The notes below the pieces were generated by a model. That model saw only the letters and a list, made by a program, of their open reading frames with translations. It searched no databases and was not told where the DNA came from. This document shows, piece by piece, positions 1-34,494 of a DNA stretch of 36,855 nt. The position numbers and the translations under genes are program-made. The first letter of the stretch is position 1, and the number at the start of each line of letters is the position of its first letter. The stretch is from Halorubrum sp. (GTDB lineage: Archaea; Halobacteriota; Halobacteria; Halobacteriales; Haloferacaceae): positions 1 through 36,855 of the forward strand of contig JAQCNI010000043.1 of assembly GCA_028275105.1 (NCBI GenBank). Reading direction: 5' to 3'.

Positions 1-168
1 GTAAACAATCAGGTAACTCGAAGCCCTCTACGGGGTACGAGTAACGGCTTCGTGGCAAAGCCACTGGCTGACTGTCCAGCAAACCTTAGACTCCCAATCT
101 TTAGGATTGACCTGCTCGGCCAACACCGGGTGGGAGGCCCGCGCCTTTATGGGCGGGAGGATGTCACG
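1..168 (+). mobile_element. 3' end of a TnpB-type IS200/IS605/IS1341 element, possible omega-RNA
   Basis: No protein-coding signal is seen here. A block at 39-62 beginning GAGTAACGGC closely matches one at 22051-22074, and both are followed about 100 bases later by a GC hairpin and a GGATGTCA ending. The hairpin here is 138-157 with a TTTA loop. This layout resembles the right end of haloarchaeal TnpB elements, where the end of the element is also the scaffold of the guide RNA (omega-RNA). That is inferred from the family; no tnpB lies inside the window and one may lie to the left. The terminal TCA at 164-166 is also the stop codon of apbE on the other strand. Confidence 0.6.
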
Positions 169-1042
169 TGTCCAAGACATGTGTCTCAAACGCTCCCGTC
201 GTATGAAAGACTCCCTCGTGGATGATGAGCGCCTCCAACCCATCCCACTCCGCCGCAAGGGTCTTTGCCTCTTCGAGCGGGAGCGCAGTGAGCGTCGTCG
301 CCAGGGCATCGGCTTCCATACAGTCTCGGCGCGCGACGACGGTGACGGACTCGTGGCGCGAGCCGAGCGACTCGGTGGTCGAGTCGTATATGTGGTCGGT
401 GCCGTTTCGCGAGCGTTTGTATCCCCCGGACGTCGCGACGCGCCAGTCCGTGTCCAGAATCTTCAGCGGCGTGTCGTCGCCGTACGGGCTCTCGATGGCG
501 ACCGCCCCCGTCGGTGGAGACATGTCCCCACCACCACTGACGAACCCACCTCGACCAAGACCCGTGAGTGCCTCGCTGGCTCGGTCGACGACGTACCCCT
601 TCGCGAGACCGTTGAGGTCGAGTTCGACGTCGGCAGTGACGTGAGACCCGCTGACTTGGACGGTGCCAGTGTCGAACGTCGCCGGGACCGCATCGCTGTC
701 ACCGCGCAGGTACGCTTTGAGGTCGTGTTCGACGCGGCCCTGATGAATGTCGAACACCCGGTCCGTCCGGTCGTAGTATTCCAACCCACGGCGGATGATC
801 CGGGCGACGTGCTCGTTTGTGACCTCGCCTTCGCGGTTGAGCCGTCTGACTGCACTCGTCTCATCGAAGGCGTTCAGCCGCGCTTCGAGTGACTCAGCCG
901 TTTCTCGAGCCGCAGTCACCGCAGCGTCGGCCCGGATGCCCGTCGCCTGGACCCGAAACGTCGTATCACAACAGTCGAACTCGCGGCGAGTGTCCCCCAG
1001 CCATTCGGTGGCCGGCGCGAGCGATCCCATCATCTCATTCAC
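164..1042 (-). CDS. apbE: FAD:protein FMN transferase, ApbE family
   Basis: ApbE enzymes move FMN from FAD onto Ser/Thr of target proteins. This 292-residue protein carries the family blocks in order: LDLNGLAKGYVVD near 141-153, GGFVSGGGDM near 165-174, ATSGGY near 203-208, HIYD near 217 and EADALAT near 243. There is no signal peptide or lipobox, so a cytoplasmic location is likely. The start is a GTG that overlaps the TGA of the upstream acidic-protein gene by 4 bases, implying coupled translation; in-frame ATGs lie three and four codons in. The stop codon is supplied by the GGATGTCA end of the mobile-element relic that converges on the gene, so the natural C-terminus may have been altered. 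Which protein it flavinylates is not shown by the sequence. Confidence 0.9.
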   Translation of the reverse strand: MNEMMGSLAPATEWLGDTRREFDCCDTTFRVQATGIRADAAVTAARETAESLEARLNAFDETSAVRRLNREGEVTNEHVARIIRRGLEYYDRTDRVFDIHQGRVEHDLKAYLRGDSDAVPATFDTGTVQVSGSHVTADVELDLNGLAKGYVVDRASEALTGLGRGGFVSGGGDMSPPTGAVAIESPYGDDTPLKILDTDWRVATSGGYKRSRNGTDHIYDSTTESLGSRHESVTVVARRDCMEADALATTLTALPLEEAKTLAAEWDGLEALIIHEGVFHTTGAFETHVLDT

Positions 1043-1419
1043 TCTTCCTCCTCGCCTTCCTCGTCTTCTTCGTGCTCTTCGCCTTCCTCGTCTTCTTCAT
1101 ACTCCTCGTGCTCTTCGCCTTCCTCGTCTTCTTCATCTTCCTCGTGCTCTTCGCCCTCCTCGTCTTCTTCATACTCCTCGTGTTCCTCGTAGCCAGACTC
1201 CGTCTGGACTTCCGGGGTGAAGTCCTGGTTTGGCGTCGGGGCATCGGCAGCGACCTGTTGTGATGCGTCCGACCCGGTCGCATCCAGTGAGTCAATTTCT
1301 TCGCCAGCCTGCGCGAGGCCCCCACCGGGTATGGCGAGACCACCGGCTACGATGGCCGTGAGGAGGGCACCTGCGAGCGTGAAGGCGACGAGTTTGTTAC
1401 TGGGGACTGGACTGCGCAT
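1039..1419 (-). CDS. Secreted or anchored protein with Glu/His/Asp repeat tail
   Basis: I do not recognise a family. The 126-residue product starts with a short basic segment and a hydrophobic stretch (about residues 10-32), then LAQA, a plausible signal-peptidase site near residue 38. The middle (39-76) is Ala/Thr/Asp-rich. The tail (77-126) is almost only Glu, Asp, Gly, His and Tyr in a 12-residue period of the type EEHEEYEEDEEG, with His recurring once per unit. The ATG at 1419 was chosen because it puts the hydrophobic segment at the N-terminus; a longer upstream reading is Arg-rich and unlikely. The stop overlaps the GTG of apbE by 4 bases, so the two are probably co-translated. A metal-binding or buffering role outside the membrane is only an inference from composition. 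Confidence 0.75.
   Translation of the reverse strand: MRSPVPSNKLVAFTLAGALLTAIVAGGLAIPGGGLAQAGEEIDSLDATGSDASQQVAADAPTPNQDFTPEVQTESGYEEHEEYEEDEEGEEHEEDEEDEEGEEHEEYEEDEEGEEHEEDEEGEEEE
1045..1193. repeat. In-frame 36-bp repeats encoding the Glu/His tail
   Basis: About four degenerate copies of a 36-bp unit (12 codons) encode the acidic tail of the small exported protein. Copies differ mainly at the Tyr/Asp position, so the unit alternates between EEHEEYEEDEEG and EEHEEDEEDEEG. Confidence 0.8.
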
Positions 1420-1688
1420 GATCAGCTGCGCCCCGTCGTAGAATCGCCATCTTCGACGTGTCGGTGGTTGCTTTCTGCCATTGCAAATGGTGGCTGGAGA
1501 CGGTCGCATTAAGCCGTTCGCGTCCAGCCCTCGAATCCTCGTACAGCCATCGAATCGATCCGGTTCGGAGCGATTCCATCAGGGAGTTACGGACCGAACG
1601 ACGTCCATTCGAATCGGCACGACCGCCGGACCTACGACACGGCGCTCGGCGGACTCCGAAACAGCATTTACCACGGCGTCGATCGCGC

Positions 1689-4591: not shown

Positions 4592-5992
4592 TCACCGGAG
4601 CGTCACGTCTTCCGACTCGACGTCCCCGAGGGGAATCGACCCCTCGACGATTGCCGTGTCCTCGTCCCCCTCTTGTGTTACCGACTCGTACCGACCGAAC
4701 AGCTCGCCTTCGCCGCTGTTCTCCGACACCCACGTCTCGATATCGCTCATCGAGGGCTGATCCTCGAACACGAGTACCCGTCGATGTATCATGCTCTCCT
4801 CCCCGAAGCGAATCGCGCTCCCTCGAGCCACCTCGCCCTCGAAGACGCCGTTTTCGGGACCGCCGAAGCCGCCGCCCAGCGACACTTCGACGGTGTACTC
4901 CCGCTCGGTCCCGCTGGTCCCGCTGGTCCCGCTGGTCCCGTTGACCTGGTCGGGGTCGTACACAATGAAGTTGTACGGTCCGTCCTCCGGCAGCCGCGTG
5001 CTGAACTCGACCTTTCCGGAGTCTCGGCGACTCTCGACCGGCGCCGAAACCTCGTTCCCGCTGTACAGGTTGACCCCCAGCCTGCCGGTGTCGTCCGACT
5101 CGGCGGTGATTGTGACCTCTGCCTCGGCGGCGCCGGCGAACGCGTACCGGTCGATGAACGCGTACTCTTGACCGTCTATCGTCGAGGTCGAGTCGGCGGT
5201 CAGCGTGCCCGAGACGGGCTGGCCGACCGTGATCGGGTCGTATTCGAGCGACCCGCTCGGGCCGTCCTCCGGTGAGACGGCATCGAACGTTTCACCGTTG
5301 AGGAGCGCGCTATCACCGAGTCCCTCCATGAGCGATACAACCGGTTCGACGACGTCTCTGTACCGGTCGGTTTCCCCCTCGGCGGTGTCTATCGCCCCGC
5401 GCATGACCGCGTTGCTCGAGGAACCGCCGGTCTCGGCCGCAAGAAGGACCAGAGAGATGTCCGCGGGCGCCTCTTCGGCGTCGCTACGACCCTCACCTTC
5501 GACGGCGAGCGTCACTCCAGAGGCGGTGTCGCTGTCGGACTCGATGAGCGCGTACCCGCCGTAGTCGCCCTGATACTGTAGCCCCTCGTATTGAAGACGC
5601 CGAAAGATGTCCTCACGGGAGAACCCCCCGGTGATCGCGGTGACCGGCCCGGCCGAGTACCGCGCTCCGACGTCCCAGAAGTCGACGCCGGCGGCCCTGA
5701 TAAGGCCTGACTCGCTCTGGCCGAAGCGCGCCACCGAGACGAGCCTCGCAAGCACCTCTTCGTCGAGCGCCTTGCGCAGACTATCGACCGCCACCGGAGA
5801 GCTCGCCGAAAAGGCGTAGTGATCGCGGTCCTCGAACGTTCCGGGAGCGTGCATCAAGTTTAATACGCGCTCCGTATCGAACGAAACGTCTCCCCCTCCG
5901 ACGGAACCGGATCCCGGTATCGAGTCGGCACAGCCGGCCAGACCGGTCGTAACGGCGCCAGCGGACAACGCTAACAGATGCCTCCGTTCCAT
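4592..5992 (-). CDS. Tat-exported lipoprotein of unknown function
   Basis: The 466-residue protein starts with a twin-arginine pair at 3-4, a hydrophobic stretch and a lipobox LAGC with Cys at 21, the usual form of haloarchaeal lipoproteins that are anchored outside the cell. Residues about 35-240 have no fold I recognise. Residues about 245-380 read like a beta-rich domain with the pattern seen in pre-peptidase-type domains (YAFAGAAEAEVTITAESDD, then LPEDGPYNFIVYD). A GTSGTSGTSGTE repeat encoded by 9-bp units sits in that domain. A clear A/T-rich promoter precedes the gene. The gene is bracketed by a duplicated helicase end, suggesting it is an accessory insertion. Function unknown. Confidence 0.82.
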   Translation of the reverse strand: MERRHLLALSAGAVTTGLAGCADSIPGSGSVGGGDVSFDTERVLNLMHAPGTFEDRDHYAFSASSPVAVDSLRKALDEEVLARLVSVARFGQSESGLIRAAGVDFWDVGARYSAGPVTAITGGFSREDIFRRLQYEGLQYQGDYGGYALIESDSDTASGVTLAVEGEGRSDAEEAPADISLVLLAAETGGSSSNAVMRGAIDTAEGETDRYRDVVEPVVSLMEGLGDSALLNGETFDAVSPEDGPSGSLEYDPITVGQPVSGTLTADSTSTIDGQEYAFIDRYAFAGAAEAEVTITAESDDTGRLGVNLYSGNEVSAPVESRRDSGKVEFSTRLPEDGPYNFIVYDPDQVNGTSGTSGTSGTEREYTVEVSLGGGFGGPENGVFEGEVARGSAIRFGEESMIHRRVLVFEDQPSMSDIETWVSENSGEGELFGRYESVTQEGDEDTAIVEGSIPLGDVESEDVTLR

Positions 5993-9632: not shown

Positions 9633-10834
<1,202 letters not shown>

Positions 10835-10835
<1 letters not shown>

Positions 10836-11764
10836 TAGGCGGCGAGGCCGACGGCGAACGCGGCCGCGTACGCCGCGAGCAGTTTGCCGGTCGATTCGAG
10901 CGCCGGGTTCAGTGCCTCCCCGTCGGTCTCCCGCAGCACCGTCCGGCCGACGTCGACCGCGAGCGGGAGCGTCGTGAGCGGGAGGAGGGCGACGATGCCG
11001 TAGCCGGTCGCGAGGAACCAGAACGGGGCGAGATACGCGAGCGCGAGCAGCGCGAGGTACTGGGCGCGAGAGAACCGGTAGCCGAACCGCACGGCGAGGG
11101 TCCGTTTGCCCGTCCGGGCGTCCTCCTCGCGGTCGCGAACGTTGTTGACCACGAGGATGTTCGTCGAGAGCGCGGCCACGGGGAGACTCGCCACGAGGGC
11201 CGCGGTCGTCACCGTTCCCGCTGGGGGCGCCACCGGGACCCCGCCGCCGACGAGCGCGGCTGCCTGGACGTAGTAGGTCCCGGTGACGGCGATCACGCCG
11301 AAGAAGACGAACACGAAGAGGTCGCCGAGCCCGTGATACCCCAGCGGGTACGGCCCGCCGGTGTACGCGATCCCGGCGGCGACGGATGCGAGGCCGATCA
11401 CGAGGATCGGCACCCCGCCGACGGCCACGAGGTACGTGCCGACCGCGATCGCCGTCGCGAACGTCAGCCACATCGCCCGTTTGACCGCCGCCGGATCGAT
11501 GAGCCCGCTGGCAACGACGCGGGTGAACCCCTCGCGGTCGTCGGTGTCCGCGCCACGGACCGCGTCGTAGTAGTCGTTCGCGAAGTTCGTCCCGATCTGG
11601 ATCAGGGCTGCCCCGACGAGCGCCGCAAGCGCCGGCAGCGGGGCGAACACGCCGGCGTCAAGCGCGAGTCCGACGCCGACGACGACCGGGGCGGCCGCCG
11701 CCGGGAGCGTCTGGGGGCGCGCGGCGATCACCCACGCCCGCCGTCGCGACACCTCGGTAGCCAT
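10835..11764 (-). CDS. menA: 1,4-Dihydroxy-2-naphthoate polyprenyltransferase, MenA
   Basis: MenA attaches the isoprenoid chain to DHNA to make demethylmenaquinone in the membrane. The 309-residue protein is a UbiA-type prenyltransferase with eight to nine hydrophobic helices. The first Asp-rich motif is [11 protein letters not shown] near residue 64, and the second is [17 protein letters not shown] near 207. The N-terminal segment [20 protein letters not shown] is characteristic of MenA rather than other UbiA enzymes. It is the first gene of a menA-menC pair with a one-base TAATG overlap. It is divergent from the small gene at 11877; an AGTTAAGG box about 30 bases upstream of the ATG could serve as TATA element. 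Confidence 0.93.
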
Positions 11765-11876
11765 TATCGGGGGATTGTGCGGTGACGACCCTTAACTTTC
11801 CCATCGACGAACGTCGGGCTACCGGCGGGTCGACGGAAACCGACAGATACGATTGGATCCGGCTCGTACCCCATGT

Positions 11877-12149
11877 ATGGCAGAAACGACTGAGGGGAAC
11901 GGTGTTACCGCCCGCTACGAGGAGACGGACGCCGAGCGCCTGCTCACGTTCTCGGCCGACGGCCACACGGCGACCGTGGCACAGAACCGCGAGGGGTACG
12001 CGATGTTGAAGGTTCGGACGGGCCCCGATGGCGACGAACTGGAGCGGTACTACGGGTTCGACATGGCGCTTGACCATGCGGCCGAGCTGCTCGTGGTCGG
12101 GGTCAACGACCTTCCCGTCCCGGAGGCCGCCGCCGACATGGGCATGTGA
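11877..12149 (+). CDS. Small haloarchaeal protein, function unknown
   Basis: The 90-residue acidic protein has no signal, membrane segment or cysteine cluster. It contains a predicted beta-rich core (VTARYEETDAERLLTFSADG, then HTATVAQNREGYAMLKV) followed by a helix with ERYYGFDMALDHAAELL and ends with ADMGM. Residue composition is that of a true haloarchaeal gene. The ATG at 11877 was preferred over an upstream in-frame ATG at 11853 because the intervening codons are not conserved-looking. It sits between menA (divergent) and leuA (same strand, 61 bases away). No function is assigned. Confidence 0.75.
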   Translation: MAETTEGNGVTARYEETDAERLLTFSADGHTATVAQNREGYAMLKVRTGPDGDELERYYGFDMALDHAAELLVVGVNDLPVPEAAADMGM

Positions 12150-12178
12150 TCGGCGACGGATCGATCGGTTGACGGAAG

Positions 12179-12188
12179 GTTTAAGTAC
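12179..12188 (+). promoter_or_regulatory. TATA-like box of leuA
   Basis: GTTTAAGTAC lies 23-32 bases before the ATG at 12211, the spacing expected for a leaderless haloarchaeal transcript. It marks 12211 as the likely translation start of leuA, upstream of the apparent frameshift. Confidence 0.6.
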
Positions 12189-12210
12189 GCTTCCACACTT
12201 CCTTCGCTCG

Positions 12211-13429
12211 ATGTCAGATACTACGGAGGCTTCGTCGGACACCCCGGCAGATCGAGTTCTTCCAGGGCACGATAGCTTCTAACATCGAAATCGGTCCTGT
12301 ACGGATCTTCGACACGACGTTACGAGACGGAGAACAGTCACCACGGACGTCGTTCAGTTATGACGAGAAACGCCGCATAGCGGCAACGCTGGACGACATG
12401 GGAACCCACGTCATCGAGGCGGGGTTCCCGGTGAACTCCGACGCGGAGTTCGAGGCCGTGAGCGATATCGCCGCCGCGACGGACACCACCGTCTGTGGGC
12501 TCGCGCGCGTCGTTGACGGGGACATCGAGGCCGCGCTCGACTCCGGCGTCGAGTTGGTCCACGTGTTCGTCTCGACGAGCGACGTCCAACTTGAGGACTC
12601 CATGCACGCGACGCGCCAGGAGGCGAAGGAGCGCGCCGTCGACGCCGTCGAAACGGTGAAGAACGCCGGCGTCAACTGTATGTTCTCGCCGATGGACGCG
12701 ACCCGGACCGAGCCGGAGTACCTGACGGAGATCGTGACGGCGACGAGCGACGCCGGGGCCGACTGGATCAACATCCCGGACACCTGCGGCGTCGCGATGC
12801 CGACGAGCTTCGGCAAGACGGTGAAGGCGGTCGACGAGGCGAGCGACGCCCGCGTCGACGTCCACACCCACGACGACTTCGGGATGGCGGCGGCGAACGC
12901 GGTCACCGGCTTCGAGAACGGGGCCGAGCAGGCGCAGGTGTCGGTCAACGGGATCGGCGAACGCGCCGGCAACGCCGCCTACGAGGAGGTCGTGATGGCC
13001 GTCGAGGCCGTCTACGGCGTCGACACCGGGATCGACACGAGCCAGATAACGACGCTGGCCCGGATCGTCGAGGAGGCCTCGGACATCCCGGTGCCGGCGA
13101 ACAAGCCCGTCACCGGGCGGAACGCGTTCGCCCACGAGTCGGGGATCCACGCGGCCGGCGTCATCGAGAACAGCGACACGTTCGAACCCGGCGTGATGAC
13201 CCCGGAGATGGTCGGCGCGGAACGCGAATTCGTGTTGGGCAAACACACGGGCACACACAGCGTCCGGAAACACCTGGTCGAGGCCGGGTTCGACCCGACC
13301 GACAGCGAGGTCCGCGAGATCACCAAGCGGGTCAAGGAGTACGGGGCCGGCAAACGGCAGGTGACCGCCGGCGACGTCGAGCGGTTCGCCCGCGAGGTCG
13401 GGGTCGAGAAGGAGGAGGTCCGGATCTGA
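12211..13429 (+). CDS. leuA: 2-Isopropylmalate synthase, LeuA, with apparent N-terminal frameshift
   Basis: LeuA condenses acetyl-CoA with 2-oxoisovalerate, the first step to leucine. The TIM-barrel motifs are intact in one frame: RIFDTTLRDGEQSPRTSFSY (12298-12357), HTHDDFGMAAANA, then NGIGERAGNAAYEEV and HESGIH. That frame has no ATG, GTG or TTG before 12398, which is already past the catalytic RDGE motif. The ATG with a well-placed TATA box (12211) is in another frame that stops at 12282. Removing one C from CCCC at 12242-12245 joins the two frames into SSDTRQIEFFQGTIASN, a LeuA-like N-terminus. About 406 residues would result, without the C-terminal leucine-binding domain of full-length LeuA. 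Related citramalate or homocitrate synthases are less likely given the ilv/leu neighbours. Confidence 0.85.
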
Positions 13430-13650
13430 TGAGCCTCTCCTCGATCGCAGCGGCCCGCCAGCCGTTGCCGTCGAGGGGACTCGATGGATTTGCGGCCCGC
13501 GGTTCGGCCGGGCGAAGCGACGGATCGTCAGGCCGGACCGACGGATCGTCAGGCCGGACCGACGGATCGTCAGGCCGGACCGACGGATCGTCATCGATAC
13601 CCCGGGGAGCACCGAGAGGTCGTCGCGACGAGGCGGGCTCCCGACAGGAA
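13430..13650. other. Gene-free stretch between leuA and the ilvB promoter
   Basis: Apart from the 21-bp tandem repeat at 13521-13593, nothing is recognised in this stretch. An open reading frame starts at an ATG overlapping the leuA stop, but it is rich in Arg, Ser and Thr, is built largely from the repeat, and runs through the ilvB promoter and leader, so it is not called as a gene. Confidence 0.6.
13521..13593. repeat. 21-bp tandem repeats downstream of leuA
   Basis: Three full copies of a 21-bp unit starting CGGATCGTCAGGCCGGACCG and half of a fourth lie about 90 bases after the leuA stop. They contain the same CGGATCGTC core as the 18-bp repeats before purC. They are directly adjacent, without spacers, so this is not a CRISPR array. 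Confidence 0.9.
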
Positions 13651-34406: not shown

Positions 34407-34423
34407 ACGCCGCCCCTCCTGGT

Positions 34424-34494
34424 GGGCGGGGTCGGCGGGGTCGGCGGGGTCGGCGGGGTCGGCGGGGTCGGCGGGGTCGGCGGGGTCGGCGGGG
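34424..34494. repeat. 9-bp tandem repeat upstream of the photolyase gene
   Basis: Seven identical copies of TCGGCGGGG, preceded by a partial one, fill the gap between the GNAT gene and the photolyase gene. The frame that continues into the photolyase gene is open through the repeat from a GTG at 34422 and would read Gly-Gly-Val repeatedly. I see no other function for the stretch. Confidence 0.93.

Follow-up and report, generated by a model that had tools for sequence, protein, structure and literature searches.

The window analyzed here is an entire Halorubrum contig of 36,855 bases, from a genome of 155 contigs that is ~95% complete. At one end it encodes a small exported protein with an acidic tail, directly upstream of apbE, the gene for FAD:protein FMN transferase. 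This arrangement raises the question of what an acidic protein does beside a flavinylation enzyme and, if it does not accept the flavin, which protein does. Our preferred reading, to which we give a probability of roughly 0.6, is that the two genes belong to a haloarchaeal, often plasmid-borne electron transfer locus, in which a signal-less ApbE would flavinylate the C-terminal serine of C9, the product of the gene after apbE.

The small acidic protein

We first list the features of the small gene, which lies on the minus strand:

1039..1419, minus strand: small exported acidic protein, 126 amino acids, first structural gene of the operon (open reading frame; ATG at 1419, TGA at 1041-1039)
1324..1395, minus strand: hydrophobic segment, residues 9-32, signal peptide or signal anchor (sequence; Kyte-Doolittle 17-mer maximum)
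1189..1245, minus strand: juxtamembrane motif DAPTPNxxFTPxVQTxSGY, residues 59-77 (conserved across homologues)
1042..1188, minus strand: acidic tail, four units of ~12 residues with one His each (TRF, lag-12 identity)

The coordinates given for this gene by the first-pass annotation are correct, as is its 4-base overlap with apbE, which begins with a GTG at 1042. The tail had been described as 50 residues of 12-residue acidic repeats, each with one His; the repeats and their histidines hold, and the length is 49 residues (34 Glu, 5 Asp, 4 His, 4 Gly, and 2 Tyr). The histidines fall at positions 80, 92, 104, and 116, a spacing of exactly 12. Lag-12 identity is 32/37; when this tail was shuffled 10,000 times, the mean was 18.4 and the highest value 27. 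TRF reports a 36-base unit in 3.9 copies with 87% matches. Other short tandem arrays in the window lie at 10641-10710 (6 bp, 11.7 copies), 13518-13593 (21 bp, 3.6 copies), and 34421-34494 (9 bp, 8.2 copies).

Among 63 distinct homologues, the regular 12-residue unit is peculiar to the species of the window, and the tail is free to vary: it ranges from 17 to 137 residues with widely variable composition and lacks His in 4 of the 63, while remaining D/E-rich with Tyr or His throughout. The constant part of the family consists of the N-terminal hydrophobic segment and APTPNxxFTPxVQTQSGY, with few exceptions for the PTPNxxFTP stretch; the TPN motif is lost in the small protein of locus L078. Residues P61, T62, P63, N64, F67, T68, P69, and G76 are invariant in nine of nine homologues. 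The Kyte-Doolittle 17-mer maximum is at least 1.92 in all 55 homologues scored, and positive charges at the N terminus suggest an N-in/C-out topology.

Neither Pfam nor NCBIfam gave a match above cut-off (best in Pfam, DUF7263 at 15.9 bits against 27; none in NCBIfam), in keeping with the earlier impression that the protein fits no described family. Also as suspected earlier, it has no FMN_bind motif: the PF04205 profile matches neither the small protein nor C9. The ApbE-type motif [ST]GA[ST] is absent from all 55 homologues, and thus the small protein is probably not a flavin carrier.

Distribution and probable mobility of the locus

We searched 391 haloarchaeal genomes, counting matches to a profile of the small protein (A1) at E<1e-10. 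The small gene occurs in 53 genomes and apbE in 53, with both in 52 (Fisher p ~1e-62, uncorrected for relatedness). Genome G354 has apbE only. G073, with an A1 match at E 6.4e-11, is counted as having the small gene without apbE; its locus L031 retains, around 5080-5290, an operator and a leader region together with the degraded beginning of the small gene, and no apbE was found in its genome. G149 was retained in the counts despite a 27-residue small-protein match and a truncated ApbE. We rejected as chance the weak A1 matches in G080 and G022 (L011, L012) and 11 further matches in the class sample (E 3.8e-6 to 9.5e-4, removed by the threshold), all short and within other, mostly longer frames. 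In the first 97 relatives surveyed, nine genomes carry the small gene and the same nine carry apbE. An A1 pattern scan of 84,980 species returned 24 loci, all haloarchaeal.

The ApbE profile PF02424 matches 65 places in the 53 genomes, spread patchily over 25 of 86 genera. Six of these places, in five genomes belonging to a single genus, encode a higher-scoring ApbE in open frames of 368 to 396 amino acids; the remaining 59 fall into one group, typically ~290 to 310 amino acids long. FMN_bind proteins occur in those five genomes alone among the 391, the genus with the canonical ApbE. The other 48 apbE genomes have none, and none was found near the locus or in the genome of the window.

Nine plasmid records, all of large plasmids, hold copies of the locus, with three copies in Halorientalis marina. 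Since copies lie on large plasmids and several loci adjoin transposases, the locus probably travels. We did not count the transposase that adjoins some loci (C6) as part of the system.

Gene order and regulation

The order in nearly all of these loci is small gene, apbE, C9, and C2, with overlapping genes. We examined 59 places with this type of apbE, 57 of which were profiled together, while the window and G021 were read separately. The small gene is directly upstream in 57 of 59 (55 of 57, plus the window and G021); it is missing in L099, and L117 has only a fragment. The coupling to apbE that was proposed from the window is thus strongly supported, also by the 52 of 391 genomes that have both genes; relatives do not show the lack of a neighboring small gene that would have spoken against it. 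C9 is present in 54 of the 57 loci and C2 in 55, and G021 has both. Both are missing from L117, from L118 (ApbE cut at residue 128), and from the window, where the contig ends; L099 has C2 and a divergent C9. Spacing is -11 to +9 bases between the small gene and apbE, -17 between apbE and C9 (45/54), and -1 between C9 and C2 (52/54). With genes overlapping or so tightly spaced, all four are probably translated as one unit.

The far end of the operon in the window contains the following:

164..1042, minus strand: apbE, FAD:protein FMN transferase, 292 amino acids, no signal peptide (PF02424 profile; PDB ApbE matches)
166..180, minus strand: first five codons of the C9 gene, MSWTR (frame translation; relatives start MSWTxKQR)
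1..165, no strand assigned: contig end, repeat-like sequence (10 records of haloarchaeal plasmids contain it, for the most part between annotated genes)

As in relatives, the start of C9 overlaps the end of apbE. Similarity to C9 then ends, 165 bases from the contig end, and the repeat occupies the place of the rest of C9 and of C2. A search for C9 and C2 in the rest of the genome gave no match. The locus may have been interrupted by an insertion or may merely be unassembled; in the best plasmid relative of the repeat, the only nearby open reading frame of at least 250 amino acids does not look like a transposase. Because the contig ends within C9, the likely carrier was hidden from the first-pass annotation.

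Upstream of the small gene, we identified a leader frame and a tandem operator:

1422..1481, minus strand: 19-codon leader open reading frame between promoter and small gene (many relatives have one of equal length at this position, others have none)
1517..1535, minus strand: operator half 2, TTCGA-N5-GNACGCGAA, with a TATA-like TTAATG immediately downstream (motif scan)
1540..1554, minus strand: operator half 1, TTCGA-N5-GNACG, 19 bp from half 2 (motif scan)

At least one copy of the operator box precedes the small gene in 54 of 56 regions in its loose form and in 49 of 56 in a longer, strict form. The loose form is expected by chance 1.38 times in the window (36.9 kb, both strands) and was found three times, two of which are this pair. 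Convergent behind C2 are C3, an ArsR-type two-wing regulator above the NCBIfam metalloregulator cut-off, and C8, a small membrane protein, in all 54 loci that include C2 and have sufficient flanking sequence (23 of the 24 named loci and 31 from the class sample, some organisms appearing twice). The same box precedes C8 in 53 of these 54 loci and, in some loci, the divergent gene C7.

In relatives without the leader frame, the small gene looks leaderless. Two Halorubrum loci encode an exported Asp-rich repeat protein with the same operator (L024:6784-7350 and L044:3-371, both minus strand). In L030, a P-type ATPase of the calcium type (10802-13480, minus strand; NCBIfam score under the cut-off) lies near the locus, and a cluster of P-type ATPase-like frames is within 6 kb of 7 of the 24 named loci. 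In the window, the region upstream of the promoter contains aTrm56, by profile match, and, by our reading of the open frames, a probable purC and PhoU-like gene; the neighborhoods of the locus in relatives show no sign of these three.

ApbE

The ApbE of the window matches PF02424 at 121.4 bits (cut-off, 25.6), and it diverges from characterized ApbE, with PDB matches at E 3e-10 and weaker. The segments AKG, GGGD, HxY, and ADAxAT, which align to PDB ApbE, are retained in at least 97% of 56 sequences, as are K148, H217, D245, and T249. These are active-site segments with catalytic roles, and the protein is a predicted FMN transferase. An export signal or hydrophobic N terminus is absent (over the first 60 residues of 57 sequences, no Kyte-Doolittle 17-mer maximum exceeds 1.16), suggesting that this ApbE is probably cytosolic. 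Most known ApbE have an export signal or lipobox; cytosolic ones are covered in a review (PMC12052999). The original suggestion of a functional pair, with ApbE acting on an exported protein, stands for the gene coupling; the small protein is probably not the carrier, and the enzyme itself is probably not exported.

C9 as candidate flavin acceptor

C9 has 95 amino acids, comprising one transmembrane helix, a linker, a thrombospondin type 3 (TSP3) repeat with two Cys, and a conserved C terminus. The C9 of L026 scores 26.9 bits against PF02412 (cut-off, 25) and the distant C9 of L030 falls just under, at 23.1; on annotated plasmids, C9 carries the product name thrombospondin type 3 repeat-containing protein, and C2 and the small protein are listed as hypothetical. 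A structure model shows a helix at residues 5-44 and an unstructured tail (pTM 0.32).

Conservation in C9 is highest in its last five residues, with a mean entropy of 0.12 bits compared to 0.58 for the TSP3 part. The 54 sequences end in TTGAS (49), TTRAS (3), TTGAT (1), or TTGGS (1), and [ST]GA[ST] is present in 50 of 54, always at the C terminus. In L078 the TSP3 repeat is gone and VVETTGAS is kept; in L080 there are two TSP3 repeats and a single conserved end. According to the same review (PMC12052999), the FMN acceptor for ApbE is the final residue of D-x-x-[ST]-G-A-[ST], either Ser or Thr, with Thr preferred; replacing the Asp by Ala has a minor effect, and the motif works most effectively as a tag at protein ends. 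The Asp is absent from its usual place in C9, which has Val there (entropy, 0.16 bits). From its motif and position, C9 is likely the flavin acceptor.

L099, from G354, has no small gene before apbE, so the small gene is not strictly required. Its C9-like protein keeps the two Cys and has a D/E/H/Y-rich stretch ahead of a TTRAS end, a single case that hints that the tail may act together with the flavin site. The TTRAS members, L099 included, form a single clade in the ApbE tree, which may reflect enzyme and tail changing together or a single change for another reason.

Membrane proteins C2 and C7

C2 has 180 amino acids and five predicted helices (pLDDT 78), and H46, H60, H123, and H136 are invariant in 44 sequences. 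These form two pairs of candidate heme ligands, H46/H60 and H123/H136, whose spacing matches that of NOX. The best family is PF01794, at 18.8 bits and E=0.0017, below the cut-off of 28. The first two Foldseek matches to the C2 model are STEAP1 (E 0.08) and NOX5 (E 0.78), and in VIA-align, NOX5, STEAP4, cytochrome b561, and Dcytb score Z 9-10, a range that unrelated helical bundles also reach. A PDB sequence search returned one receptor match, which we dismissed as meaningless, and [ST]GA[ST] is absent from all 55 C2 sequences. With moderate confidence, we assign C2 as a ferric-reductase-like membrane cytochrome that would bind heme.

C7 is a second multi-His membrane protein, of 236 amino acids with an acidic loop, encoded by a divergent gene. 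In the 13 copies read of 14 found (L153 left out), the loop contains TGAS in 10 and EGAS, EGVS, and EGGS in one each. C7 occurs in 13 of the 391 genomes, and all 13 are among the 53 with apbE (hypergeometric p ~1e-12, uncorrected). It matches DUF4405 weakly, at E=0.25. Copies lie at L034:4987-5694 (minus strand) and in L023, L024, L036, L039, L042, and L141-L154, and share the operator.

Proposed mechanism and alternatives

In the mechanism that we propose, ApbE made in the cytosol would move FMN from FAD onto the last residue of C9, Ser or Thr. C9 would be an exported, transmembrane-anchored protein with a calcium-type TSP3 spacer, and its C terminus would be a naturally occurring flavin tag. 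Across the membrane, this flavin would exchange electrons with C2, a putative ferric-reductase-type membrane cytochrome with four His. A point against this scheme is that C9 would have to be modified before translocation, because ApbE is signal-less and the C terminus of C9 is exported. The missing motif Asp of C9, the sub-threshold PF01794 score of C2, the small gene lacking in L099, the tails without His, and the failure to find C9 and C2 in the genome of the window also count against it. The small protein is probably a polyanionic exported accessory: it would sit beside C9 and C2 as a membrane-anchored extracellular polyanion and would not be flavinylated. We propose that it holds cations near C9 and C2 because ApbE has no export signal, the N termini of the small protein and C9 are hydrophobic, and the C9-like protein of L099 contains a D/E/H/Y-rich stretch. 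Its most likely role would be to concentrate cations close to the flavin, whether Ca/Mg or a metal that serves as substrate; the tail may bind metal, and its histidines are not conserved. More speculatively, and in our view doubtful as it stands, the locus could be a transferable archaeal surface metal reductase, with a cytosol-attached C-terminal flavin on a calcium-stabilized surface protein beside a His/Tyr-studded, metal-gathering polyanion, working without FMN_bind or c-type cytochromes.

The conservation of TTGAS might instead arise at the level of RNA. The C9 stop and C2 start overlap by one base in 52 of 54 loci, and the Gly93 codon lies at the expected position of a ribosome-binding site for C2. 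This codon is GGG in 44 of 51, compared to 27% in the same genes, and the Gly-to-Arg variant, AGG, preserves the purines. The GGG excess at this place suggests that the Gly may be held by an RNA function, and part of the conservation of TTGAS could reflect the ribosome-binding site. In the full form of this alternative, C9 is structural and the true ApbE substrate is an unknown protein or the C7 cytochrome, which has TGAS in 10 of 13 copies. We regard this as rather unlikely. Codons for T91, A94, and S95 vary at third bases (GCC/GCG/GCA for Ala; TCG/TCC/TCT for Ser) while the residues almost never do, and the sole replacement of the Ser, by ACG, is Thr; these three positions thus favor selection on the peptide. 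C7 cannot be a general substrate, since only 13 of 391 genomes have it. That the small protein itself is the substrate, on a Thr of its APTPNxxFTP segment, would suit its adjacency to apbE, seen in 57 of 59 loci, and the invariance of T62 and T68 in nine of nine homologues, but we consider this very improbable: [ST]GA[ST] is found in 0 of its 55 homologues, whereas C9, encoded on the opposite flank of apbE, ends with it in 50 of 54. In addition, the TPN motif is lost in L078, and in L099 no small gene accompanies apbE.

The divergence of the locus ApbE (PDB matches at E 3e-10 and weaker) would also be compatible with an FAD pyrophosphatase (Ftp-like) or an otherwise non-transferase protein, an activity that PMC4767422 describes for a Treponema homologue. 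This is improbable, as the segments aligned with known transferases are kept and a motif-bearing partner is next in the operon. The acidic tail, in turn, could simply be a disordered spacer suited to high salt, or a tail for solubility, that binds no ligand itself; this reading is compatible with flavinylation of C9, and we consider it less likely than not. Its length (17 to 137 amino acids) and composition vary, and His is missing in 4 of 63 homologues. Arguing for a more specific role are the D/E-rich character with Tyr or His kept throughout and the stretch inside the C9-like protein of L099, which suggests a job for the tail near the flavin site.

Relation to known systems and significance

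The closest counterparts are the MsrQ-like flavinylation clusters described by Meheust et al. 2021 (PMC8238504), which, much like the arrangement proposed here, combine ApbE, a PF01794 ferric-reductase-like membrane cytochrome, and an exported flavin carrier, typically an FMN_bind protein. The haloarchaeal locus differs in having no FMN_bind, a signal-less ApbE, a TSP3 carrier with a C-terminal motif, and an acidic small protein. That survey retained a gene only if it had a signal peptide or a lipidation site, and it would therefore miss the locus ApbE. It also reports orphan-apbE substrates, DUF2271 and DUF3570, as FMN_bind-free neighbors of ApbE that carry [ST]GA[ST] and were shown to be flavinylated; these are other domains, of ~135 and ~420 amino acids, while C9 is a 95-residue TSP3 protein that terminates in the motif. 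The Flavin-tag (Tong et al. 2021, as cited in PMC12052999) shows that a short terminal ApbE motif is sufficient for flavinylation; that tag is engineered, whereas we propose a natural one in C9. DUF4405 flavinylation-associated cytochromes (PMC11334425) are, like C7, multi-His membrane cytochromes adjoining apbE, although C7 does not reach a family-level score and has an extra acidic, TGAS-bearing loop. Our literature searches returned no paper on apbE together with flavinylation in haloarchaea or on FMN transferase in haloarchaea, nor any on thrombospondin type 3 with apbE or haloarchaea; for flavinylation in halophilic archaea they gave two, one of which, PMC7226565, deals with a Sulfolobus enzyme.

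The locus provides a context for an exported acidic-repeat protein that belongs to no known family, and offers a candidate substrate for the ApbE of most apbE-bearing haloarchaeal genomes, since 48 of the 53 sampled have no FMN_bind protein. In our reading, C9 would carry a natural flavin tag at its C terminus, and the locus points to a route, not described before, by which archaea would move electrons across the cell membrane. Such a route would add an archaeal, plasmid-borne flavin pathway to extracytosolic electron transfer, which to date is known mainly from bacteria.
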